Shown: piece after piece, positions 15,100 through 52,440 of the stretch
Position numbering within the stretch: position 1 is the first letter of the stretch
Layout: the number at the start of each line of letters is the position of its first letter
Source: Ectopseudomonas chengduensis
GTDB taxonomy: Bacteria; Pseudomonadota; Gammaproteobacteria; Pseudomonadales; Pseudomonadaceae
Assembly (NCBI RefSeq): GCF_015712065.1
Contig: NZ_JACFYZ010000002.1
Location: 372,001 to 436,000 of the forward strand
Direction: 5' to 3'
DNA: 64,000 nucleotides
Notes under the pieces: model-generated
The model's database searches: none
What the model was told of the DNA's origin: nothing
Seen by the model: the letters and a program-made list of their open reading frames with translations, nothing else
Made by a program: the position numbers and the translations under genes

Positions 15100-15222
15100 G
15101 GAAATCTGCTGGTTTCCAAGACGGGGCAAGGTGCGAAAGAGCGTGCGGCGCCCCGGTTGTAAGTCGTAACCCTATTGAGTCCCTCGCGGGCTCGGTTCAG
15201 TCGATCATCGCATGCTGAACCG
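15100..15222 (+). ncRNA. Candidate gabT RNA motif in the gabD-gabT spacer
   Basis: The 157-base spacer contains three stem-loops: 15100-15117 (GGAAA/TTTCC), 15122-15155 (CGGGGC/GCCCCG around an inner loop) and 15193-15222 (CGGTTCAG/CTGAACCG). A conserved Pseudomonas RNA structure called the gabT motif is known only from this position, downstream of gabD and upstream of gabT. The hairpins and context are seen; equivalence to that family is inferred, since I cannot score it against the model. The last hairpin ends 31 bases before the gabT start, leaving the ribosome site free. Confidence 0.55.
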
Positions 15223-15253
15223 ACCTCCCGCCGGGGACGACCATGAGGACACC

Positions 15254-49585: not shown

Positions 49586-49687
49586 GATCAGGTTCCGTAA
49601 ACAGACGGTCGGCAGTGTAGCACGCAGCCAGCGGCGGGGCGGTCTAGCACTGGTTGCACGATTTTTGAGCATTACTCAATGTGTAGA

Positions 49688-49704
49688 TGCACCAAGTTTG
49701 TGCG
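49688..49704 (+). promoter_or_regulatory. NtrC-type activator site upstream of glnK
   Basis: TGCAC-N7-GTGCG (CACCAAGTTTGTGC in the middle) has the exact GCAC-N7-GTGC spacing of NtrC boxes, 77 bases upstream of the -24 element at 49781. Position and match are typical of an enhancer for a nitrogen-regulated promoter. Confidence 0.7.
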
Positions 49705-49780
49705 TTGCATTCGACGTGAATGACCGGTCACCGTGGCTGGAAGCTGTTAAAGGCCTGATAGATAGCGCTTTTGCGTGAGC

Positions 49781-49796
49781 TGGCAAGCTTTCTGCT
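49781..49796 (+). promoter_or_regulatory. Sigma54 promoter of glnK-amt
   Basis: TGGCAAGCTTTCTGC keeps GG (49782-49783) and GC (49794-49795) at the exact -24/-12 spacing, with the flanking C and T preferences. The start would be about 190 bases before glnK, leaving a long leader. It makes glnK-amt RpoN-dependent, consistent with ammonia-limited induction. Confidence 0.75.
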
Positions 49797-49944
49797 TAGA
49801 CCCCAGCGACGCATGCACCGATGCAGTTCTGGTGCTGCAGGCGAAGCGGGGGAGTGCTTCGTCGGGAGCGGTTGGTGGGTATCGACCACGCCAGGCTGGA
49901 GCGGTCGGTGCATTACAAAAGCCAGACACTGCGCTTAGACTTGA

Positions 49945-50334
<390 letters not shown>

Positions 50335-50369
50335 CAAGCCTCCGAACCCCACGCCCCAGGAGTAAACCC

Positions 50370-50588
50370 ATGACTCTGCGAACTTTCGCAGGGCTAGGAG
50401 CCCTTTTGTCCTCGAATTCTGGCTTTACGCTGTTTTCGAGGGCCAAAGCCGGAGCTGGCGATGTCTTCGCCGCTCTGCTGTGCCAAGACCCTCTTTGGTC
50501 CTGCGCTCGGCCTAGTGATGGGAATGCCTGGTCGCCTCACGGCGCAGGGGTTCCGGTGATCCAGAACGAGCGTGGCAACGACCTGTAA
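50370..50588 (+). pseudogene. Probable remnant of canonical amtB (internal deletion)
   Basis: A 72-codon frame, 36 bases after glnK. It opens MTLRTFAGLGALLS, which I recognise as the signal-peptide start of canonical Pseudomonas AmtB, and ends NERGNDL, close to the C-terminal NERGYNL that I recall for that protein; the middle is unrelated to any transporter. The ATG has a ribosome site (CAGGAG). I infer that an amtB lost almost all its transmembrane part while its ends remained. The matching to AmtB is from memory and needs alignment; a chance leader peptide is the alternative. Confidence 0.55.
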
Positions 50589-50665
50589 GCATGCGGACGC
50601 GTCCTGAGCCAACCTGGACGTTTCAACCGAACAGCGCACTACAAAAGCGCGGCAAGAGGTGAAAA

Positions 50666-51916
50666 ATGGATAACACAGCATTGACTGCATTGCAGTACGG
50701 CTTCGATACCTTCTACTTTCTGATCTGTGGTGCCCTGGTGATGTGGATGGCAGCGGGTTTTGCCATGCTCGAATCCGGCCTGGTGCGTGCCAAGAACACC
50801 ACCGAGATCCTGACCAAGAACGTGGCGCTCTATGCCGTGGCCAGCGTCATGTACCTGGTGATCGGCTACCACATCATGTACTCCAGCCCGGAAGGCGGCA
50901 TCCTGCCGAGCCTGGGCTTCCTGATCGGTGACGAAAACAGCGTCGACTCGGTACTTGCCGGTGGCGACGATGCACCTTACTACTCGGCCCGTTCGGACTT
51001 CTTCTTCCAGGTGGTGTTCGCCGCGACCTGCATGTCGATCGTGTCCGGTGCCGTTGCCGAGCGCATGAAGCTGTGGGCCTTCCTGGCTTTCGCCGTGGTC
51101 ATGACCGGCTTCATCTACCCGGTTCAGGGTTTCTGGAAATGGGGCTCGGGCTTCCTCAACGAAGCAGGCTTCCTCGACTTCGCAGGCTCCGGTGTGGTTC
51201 ACATGGCGGGTGCTACCGCCGCTCTGGCTGGTGTCCTGCTGCTGGGCGCGCGCAAGGGTAAGTACGGCGCCAACGGCCAGGTCAACGCCATCCCGGGTGC
51301 CAACCTGCCGCTGGCGACGCTCGGCACCTTCATCCTGTGGATGGGCTGGTTCGGCTTCAACGGCGGCTCGCAGCTGAAGATGAGCACCATCGAAGACGCC
51401 AACGCCGTTGCCCAGGTGTTCGTCAACACCAACATGGCAGCCGCCGGCGGCCTGATTGCCGCGCTGATCGTTGCCCGCATCCTGTTCGGCAAGGCTGACC
51501 TGACCATGGCGCTCAACGGTGCCCTGGCTGGCCTGGTGGCCATCACCGCTGAACCGTTGACCCCGAGCGGCCTGCAGGCGACTCTGATTGGCGGCGTGGG
51601 TGGTGTGCTGGTGGTGTTCGCCATCCTCGGTCTGGACAAGGTCAAGATCGACGATCCGGTTGGTGCCATCTCCGTACACGGTGTGGTCGGCATCTGGGGT
51701 CTGCTGGCTGTTTGCCTGACCAACAGCGATGCTTCGCTGGGTGCTCAGTTGCTGGGTATCGGCAGCATCTTCGCCTGGGTATTCATCGCCAGCCTGATCG
51801 TCTGGAGCATCATCAAGGCGGTGATCGGTCTGCGCGTCAGCGAAGAAGAAGAATACGAAGGTGTGGATATCGCCGAGTGCGGTATGGAGGCCTACCCGGA
51901 ATTCACCAACAAGTGA
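50666..51916 (+). CDS. Ammonium transporter (Amt family, marine-type subgroup)
   Basis: 416 residues with 11 predicted transmembrane helices and no cleavable signal peptide. Amt signatures include GFAMLESGLVRAKNTTEIL, SGVVHMAGATAALAGVLL (pore histidine) and AISVHGVVGIWG. The N-terminus and lack of signal peptide fit the subgroup named the marine-type Amt rather than the long-signal canonical AmtB. It transports ammonium into the cell and should be gated by GlnK, whose gene lies 331 bases upstream with the remnant in between. RBS AGAGGTGAAAA precedes the ATG, and a terminator follows. Confidence 0.9.
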   Translation: MDNTALTALQYGFDTFYFLICGALVMWMAAGFAMLESGLVRAKNTTEILTKNVALYAVASVMYLVIGYHIMYSSPEGGILPSLGFLIGDENSVDSVLAGGDDAPYYSARSDFFFQVVFAATCMSIVSGAVAERMKLWAFLAFAVVMTGFIYPVQGFWKWGSGFLNEAGFLDFAGSGVVHMAGATAALAGVLLLGARKGKYGANGQVNAIPGANLPLATLGTFILWMGWFGFNGGSQLKMSTIEDANAVAQVFVNTNMAAAGGLIAALIVARILFGKADLTMALNGALAGLVAITAEPLTPSGLQATLIGGVGGVLVVFAILGLDKVKIDDPVGAISVHGVVGIWGLLAVCLTNSDASLGAQLLGIGSIFAWVFIASLIVWSIIKAVIGLRVSEEEEYEGVDIAECGMEAYPEFTNK

Positions 51917-51932
51917 TCCTCCGGTAAATCGC

Positions 51933-51963
51933 AAAGGGCGCCTTCGGGCGCCCTTTGTTTTTT
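51933..51963 (+). terminator. Intrinsic terminator after amt
   Basis: AAAGGGCGCC / GGCGCCCTTT stem, TTCG loop and a T-run, 16 bases past the stop. Confidence 0.93.
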
Positions 51964-52014
51964 CTGGCAGCACGCTAGAATGCGCGCGCTGGAGCCATCG
52001 AGAGTGAGAGCGGC

Positions 52015-52440
52015 ATGTGGCAGCAACGCATCATCAGTCTGCGCCCGCGTGAGCGCGGTTTTCATCTGGTGACCGAAGAAGTGCTGGCAGCATTGCCGGA
52101 ACTGGCGCAGGTACGTGTTGGTCTGTTGCATCTGTGGCTGCAGCACACCTCGGCATCGCTGACGGTCAACGAGAACGCCGACCCCGCGGTACGCCGCGAT
52201 TTCGAGCGCTTCTTCAACCGTCTGGTACCGCAGGGGGAGGCGGGCTACGAGCACGATTACGAAGGGCCGGATGATTTGCCGGCGCACTTCAAGGGCAGCC
52301 TGCTGGGCTTTCAGCTACAGCTGCCGATACAGCAGGGACGGCTGGCGCTTGGTACCTGGCAGGGGATCTACCTTGGTGAGCATCGCGATCATGGCGGTGC
52401 TCGGCGAGTGGTGGCGACCTTGCATGGTGAGGCTATTTGA
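52015..52440 (+). CDS. YjbQ-family (UPF0047) protein
   Basis: 141 residues. The conserved UPF0047/YjbQ pattern is complete: [35 protein letters not shown] and [20 protein letters not shown]. Some members have been called secondary thiamine-phosphate synthases; the physiological role is unclear. It is followed 77 bases on by sutA. Ribosome site GAGAG lies before the ATG. Confidence 0.9.

Follow-up and report, generated by a model that had tools for sequence, protein, structure and literature searches.

Between glnK, the gene of a P-II regulator, and a gene for a marine-type ammonium transporter, the genome of Ectopseudomonas chengduensis carries a 72-codon frame with AmtB-like ends. The locus raises the questions of what this frame is and why it has stayed in place. 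The analysed DNA, here called the window, is a stretch of 64,000 nt (GCF_015712065.1, NZ_JACFYZ010000002.1, positions 372,001–436,000 of the forward strand), and all coordinates refer to this stretch. An earlier note on the window had proposed that the resident amtB collapsed and was functionally replaced by the marine-type gene under the same promoter.

All the features described lie on the plus strand. The glnK gene (49996–50334) was recognised by PF00543 and exceeded the curated cut-off of NF007946 (200 vs 181 bits), which assigns its product to the P-II/GlnK family. Upstream of it, pattern searches located a predicted sigma54-type promoter, TGGCAAGCTTTCTGCT, at 49781–49796 and an NtrC-like site, TGCACCAAGTTTGTGC, at 49688–49703 (-308 from glnK). 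We take the two matches to be putative sites of these kinds. A sigma54-like match was present upstream of glnK in 36/36 loci and an NtrC-like site in 31/36, in agreement with the single promoter of this type that the earlier note had placed in front of both the 72-codon frame (50370–50588) and the marine-type gene, referred to here as amtB2 (50666–51916). The gap between glnK and amtB2 in the window is 331 bases. An intrinsic terminator with a 12-pair stem and a T run follows amtB2 at 51931–51964. No sigma70-like promoter was found in 49600–52020, and no Rfam family matched 50335–50700 at E≤10. Elsewhere in the window, a gabT RNA motif (RF01738, 51 bits) was detected at 15178–15239.

The frame starts with MTLRTFAGLGALLS and ends with NERGNDL and a stop codon. 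The AmtB-like ends noticed earlier directly after glnK were confirmed: in all nine intact neighbours listed, AmtB1 starts with MTLRK[IF]AGLGAL and ends with NERGYNL or NERGYIL, the full-length protein being 437–438 aa (MTLRKIAGLGALLS...NERGYNL or NERGYIL). The segment 49996–50700 was matched throughout in 6 of 149 genus genomes, including the genome of the window itself. In the other 143, the best match stopped at query positions 413–431, corresponding to 50408–50426. On the right-hand side, the 14 loci listed directly behind the relics were compared, and in 13 of them the match of the intact locus starts at query position 158 (50562); the remnant of the AmtB1 C-terminus with its stop codon occupies 50562–50588. 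Both ends of the frame are homologous to amtB1 and lie at the same place as in the relatives. Judged from these alignments, the 72-codon frame represents what remains of amtB1, only the two gene ends (219 bp), and the collapse between glnK and the marine-type gene has breakpoints at 50408–50426 and 50562. Pfam and NCBIfam searches with the 72-aa translation gave no family at E≤1, and the transporter domain PF00909 was absent.

The claim that no transporter sequence lies between the two ends held for the window, where the middle of the relic bears no recognisable resemblance to AmtB. It did not hold for the relic of genome G138, whose middle is still similar to the signal peptide of AmtB and, to a lesser degree, to its first membrane helix. 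In G138, the N-terminal part of AmtB fits the middle better than the last helix does. The middles of G255 and G303 were compared with the same N-terminal part, and 13/300 and 4/300 shuffles, respectively, scored as well; these figures are too favourable, because the observed value was a maximum over 68 genes and the shuffled one a maximum over 12. Two other origins of the middle were rejected. A decayed last AmtB helix was equalled by 88 and 138 of 500 shuffles, and for a mobile element or repeat, no second copy was detected in the genome beyond short matches at E≥0.22. Searches of the relic middle against plasmids gave three short matches at E 0.6, and those against phages gave none. Intermediate collapsed forms were not found among the relatives of G138 and G255 (57 genomes each).

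The assignment of the following gene to the marine-type subgroup was correct. Its product scored 693 bits with TIGR03644 (marine_trans_1; cut-off 514), compared with 194 bits for intact AmtB1, and contains the Amt core motifs DFAGSGVVH, HGVVGIWG and GWFGFN. The gene order in relatives is glnK, the canonical AmtB gene, a spacer of about 80–120 bases, and the counterpart of the window's transporter. Operon order was inspected in 18 named loci out of the 80 found. The order glnK–amtB1–marine amt was present in 10 of them, including P. aestuarii, S. stutzeri and P. linyingensis; P. composti carries the stump and the remaining seven have no amtB1 between the two genes. In a tree of 46 amtB2 sequences, the gene of the window grouped among the second genes of three-gene operons. 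Phylogeny and gene order thus indicate that 50666–51916 is the resident second Amt gene of the operon and not an incoming replacement. That a marine-type Amt was brought in to take over from the lost AmtB is suggested by its different subfamily and contradicted by its regular place as second Amt gene in the relatives with a retained amtB1, so that we give this explanation almost no credence. The earlier note had itself named grouping with the ordinary glnK-linked AmtB of the genus as an argument against its proposal. Since the marine-type gene is an ordinary second gene in the relatives, such grouping was found in part, namely with the amtB2 genes. The word "replacement" applies at most in the sense of an amtB2 that functions today in the absence of amtB1.

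Two more Amt genes were observed on other contigs of the same genome (L001, L003). With NF007947, they scored 178 and 140 bits and intact AmtB1 479 bits, all under the cut-off of 657. One of them reached 404 bits with TIGR00836 and lies beside a gene that by eye resembles a diguanylate cyclase; the other, with 301 bits, was under the TIGR00836 cut-off of 343. In Larsenimonas, Oceanospirillum and Halomonas loci (L080, L081, L084, L089, L090), the marine amt was flanked by two glnK-like genes.

Among 398 genus genomes, 14 carry the stump. A second set of 398 genomes, drawn from the family and overlapping the first, yielded 17 at E≤1e-30, nine of them new, and with P. composti counted in, the total came to 24 stump loci. 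In the midpoint-rooted gyrB tree, 22 relic genomes fell within one clade, with G138 apart; G558 joined at a support of 94 and the rest at 100. The gyrB trees were built without P. composti and without G222, for which only a lower-scoring match, taken for parE, was available. The relic is old. The stump of G138 is homologous to the other stumps (40 bits), and this genome was placed with the intact G185 and G242 in both the gyrB and the amtB2 trees; its stump may be the older one or may have been transferred.

Three genomes with intact operons were nested in the relic clade, each beside a stump genome: G324 (support 100), G008 (96) and G113 (83). The amtB2 of G324 fell outside the relic group of the amtB2 tree (support 84). 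In G008, the far-upstream DNA was nearest to relic genomes, the leader and glnK were nearest to G113 (glnK 0.941 vs 0.932 for the best relic), and amtB2 nested among relic genomes (support 98). Signs of import were detected in two of the three nested genomes, G324 and G008. The intact operon segments in the relic clade are read by us as acquired by recombination; repeated loss, or the spread of the relic, may explain the nesting instead. The distance from the NERG codons to the amtB2 start in G008, G113 and G324 (L012, L011, L068) is 139–141 bases and in most others 103–108 bases. This longer spacer, present also in L018, L026 and P. daroniae (L078), has by eye an apparent extra hairpin.

The coding potential of the relic was compared over all 24 loci. 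The same ATG opens frames of 60–76 codons, partly in differing reading frames, so that the 72-codon frame is not conserved as such. A helix-like frame was kept in 12 of the 24 relics and shifted by single-base indels in the other 12. Among five sequences keeping the helix frame, pN/pS was 0.59–1.33 in nine of ten pairs, the tenth pair having the value 0 with two differences; purifying selection on the amino acids of a small conserved protein was not detected (pN/pS about 1). From the shifted frames and the pN/pS values near 1, we therefore conclude that the relic is under no protein constraint. In G138, an intact 76-aa frame is present, with a middle similar to AmtB residues 15–75 (mean score 37.4 vs 23.5 for shuffles; equalled by 3–4 of 500). 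When the part after the signal peptide was taken alone, it was equalled by 1/500 shuffles by mean score and by 55/500 by best score.

The lowest variation was determined at the 5' end. The first 42 bases of the relic (50370–50411) hold, directly after the ATG, two potential stems, CTGCG/CGCAG and AGGGC/GCCCT, and 4 of 42 columns vary in 14 relics. The nucleotide diversity of this segment was 0.0165, compared with 0.023 in the spacer before it and 0.137 directly downstream (14 stumps, with P. composti included and G138 left out). The third-position values were 0.080 for glnK, 0.215 for amtB2 and 0.186 for gyrB (13 genomes for gyrB). Low values, 0.032–0.036, were also obtained for 50510–50536, the AmtB tail and the amtB2 leader. 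Both stems were identical in 69 of 71 intact amtB1 genes that had been collected without any condition on this DNA, and among the relics CTGCG/CGCAG was present in 24/24 and AGGGC/GCCCT in 23/24. The gene start was also the segment of strongest codon conservation in 68 intact genes, a result biased in the first codons as these genes were chosen by a pattern on the first 11 bases. The comparison of intact and collapsed loci shows that the first 42 bases are AmtB coding sequence with two near-invariant putative stems beside the ribosome-binding site in intact genes, and are still almost frozen in the stumps.

No covariation was detected in these stems among 31 of the 52 distinct sequences (alignment A2), and the element folded alone was no better than chance (z -1.36 to +0.29). 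Therefore, a DNA site or the start-codon context could explain the 5' element. For P. stutzeri A1501, an Hfq eCLIP peak is reported in the amtB 5'UTR, and amtB and glnK are reported to be up about twofold in the strain without hfq (PMC11332353). The second stem (50390–50404) is followed by TTT in the window and was scored there as terminator-like; many intact genes have GTTG or ATTG at this place.

The 157 bases after the 5' element were predicted to fold into four hairpins in the core clade: P1 (50408–50443), P2 (50450–50477), P3 (50480–50506, with one extra A in the window) and P4 (50518–50557). For the middle alone, the MFE z-scores were -2.05 to -4.65 in 14/14 core loci, and with the tail included -0.89 to -3.72. 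Single-sequence control pieces (11) gave -2.75 to +2.0. When nine core loci were trimmed to 150 nt, their z-scores lay between -1.05 and -3.46, the weakest being G063 (-1.05) and G255 (-1.25). The alignment fold (alifold) had a z of -4.39, reached by 0/150 column shuffles, while 29 control windows from amtB2, glnK and gyrB of the same genomes ranged from -2.01 to +1.66 and the glnK 5'UTR gave -1.93. The antisense strand of the relic middle resulted in an alignment z of -3.33.

The substitution pattern was determined for 13 loci, without G000, whose extra A shifts P3 in the alignment. Variable columns made up 21 of 88 in stems and 32 of 64 in unpaired regions (Fisher p 0.001). Changed pair states still pairing numbered 15/20 on the sense and 8/20 on the antisense strand. 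Pairing was kept in 13 of 18 single-sided stem changes, which exceeds the expectation from the unpaired-region spectrum (7.1, p 0.005) and is not above that for identical changes placed at random within stems (mean 11.6, p 0.18). Changes on both sides occurred in 2 of 44 pairs, and partners slid by +2 also gave 2. An alignment including G138, with 8/60 pairs changed on both sides (0–4 when slid), was set aside because its structure had been derived from that very alignment and the G138 sequence does not adopt this fold.

Nine loci outside the model were then compared with it. The seven close ones, which are not independent of the training set, keep 42–44 of the 44 pairs (p 0.005–0.67). G558 keeps 38/44 (p 0.08, z +1.29) and G673 27/44 (p 0.42, z +0.80); for G649, also outside the model, p was 0.67 and z -0.99. 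The middle of G138 gave a z of -0.62. From the held-out results of G558 and G673, the fold is therefore at most a core-clade feature. Within these bounds, the predictions support four successive hairpins in the mRNA sense, restricted to the core clade. A covariance model searched against 398 genus genomes retrieved the 14 known relics and four weak matches of 26–29 bits, which were taken as chance.

A further hairpin was located in the leader of amtB2 (50597–50625). It is covarying and present both with and without amtB1: one pair changes from U-A to C-G in 13/33 and another from G-C to A-U in 11/33 sequences (alignment A1, 33 of 36 distinct sequences, six of them trimmed at the 5' side). This hairpin had no Rfam match in the window.

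Taken together, it is rather probable from comparative data that the stump has been kept as an operon leader around the conserved 5' element. In the lineage of the window's genome, amtB1 has lost everything between its start and its last codons, and the stump, though it no longer encodes a conserved protein, persists in 22 genomes within a single gyrB clade. According to this explanation, it would serve as a leader RNA of the operon. The 5' element may act through its structure or by binding a partner, perhaps an RNA-binding protein such as Hfq. The hairpins could keep the 331-base glnK–amtB2 gap from ending or degrading the message, or they could alternatively set the GlnK:AmtB2 ratio. The complete proposal, which we regard as rather less likely than not, is that the amtB1 stump in the P. 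composti-type clade became a leader RNA with four hairpins in the gap from glnK to amtB2, arranged round an element pre-existing in the first 14 codons of Pseudomonas amtB, and that it is erasable when an intact glnK–amtB1 segment recombines in.

The main rival is that the stump is simply a pseudogene remnant evolving neutrally. In that case, a start site or a signal in the DNA would account for the survival of the 42 bases at the 5' end, and the hairpins would be due to chance or to quasi-palindrome repair in replication, which gives complementary changes without selection. The single-base indels, pN/pS near 1, the few double changes and a fold that G138 and G673 lack and G558 shows only weakly are all as expected of such a stump, whereas its retention in 22 genomes of one gyrB clade, the lower variability of the stem columns than of the unpaired ones and the alignment z of -4.39 vs the same-genome controls argue against it; we regard it as unlikely, though a serious contender. 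It is quite improbable that a small RNA is processed from the 3' part of the glnK message and acts in trans like GlnZ from glnA in enterobacteria. Such an RNA would fit the position directly after a nitrogen-regulated gene, the compact hairpins and the GlnZ precedent (PMC9731577), but no terminator-like site was found from P4 to the end of amtB2, and the search for a sigma70-like promoter in 49600–52020 was negative. A microprotein consisting of the signal peptide, one membrane helix and the AmtB tail, intact in G138 (76 aa) and perhaps acting on GlnK or AmtB2, is more improbable still. The resemblance of the G138 frame to AmtB residues 15–75 and its run into the in-frame tail are in its favour, as is the helix-like frame of half of the relics (12/24); against it, the frame is shifted in the other half, nine of ten pairs have a pN/pS of 0.59–1.33, and for the helix part of G138 taken alone, 55/500 shuffles come up to the observed best score (1/500 to the mean score).

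Since bacteria usually delete dead genes quickly, a clade-wide stump offers a natural experiment on which portions of a gene are important independently of its protein. At this locus the stump points to a concealed element within the first 42 bases of amtB in Pseudomonas, close to the reported Hfq site, and possibly represents a protein gene reborn as RNA. A further suggestion from the locus is that cells with AmtB2 can do without AmtB1, and that an intact operon segment was regained by recombination in some lineages. The loss of one operon gene is ordinary; the clade-wide stump round a hidden 5' coding element, possibly a structured RNA, is the new part. A literature search of limited reach found no paper on the glnK–relic–amtB2 locus.

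Among the known systems, the closest is the operon of P. (Stutzerimonas) stutzeri A1501. It has the same genes, amtB1 and amtB2 are reported to be cotranscribed with glnK, an NtrC-binding site lies at glnK, and the authors inferred NtrC dependence (PMC8443478). In A1501, amtB1 is intact, unlike in the window, where only the stump is left. S. stutzeri CLN100 (L077) has the same amtB 5' stems as the relic. The glnK–marine amt pairs of Halomonas, Oceanospirillum and Atopomonas are similar in having a marine-type Amt close after glnK without amtB1, and the Halomonas and Oceanospirillum loci differ from the window by a second glnK after amt. The likeness to GlnZ, an sRNA from the glnA 3'UTR (PMC9731577), would consist in an RNA product of a nitrogen-regulated message, putative for the relic; at the relic locus, no terminator-like site was found between P4 and the end of amtB2. 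The near-invariant sequence beside the ribosome-binding site resembles Hfq/RsmA sites that overlap coding starts, and an Hfq peak is reported at the amtB 5'UTR (PMC11332353). Unlike such start-overlapping sites, the candidate element in the relic outlives its coding gene.
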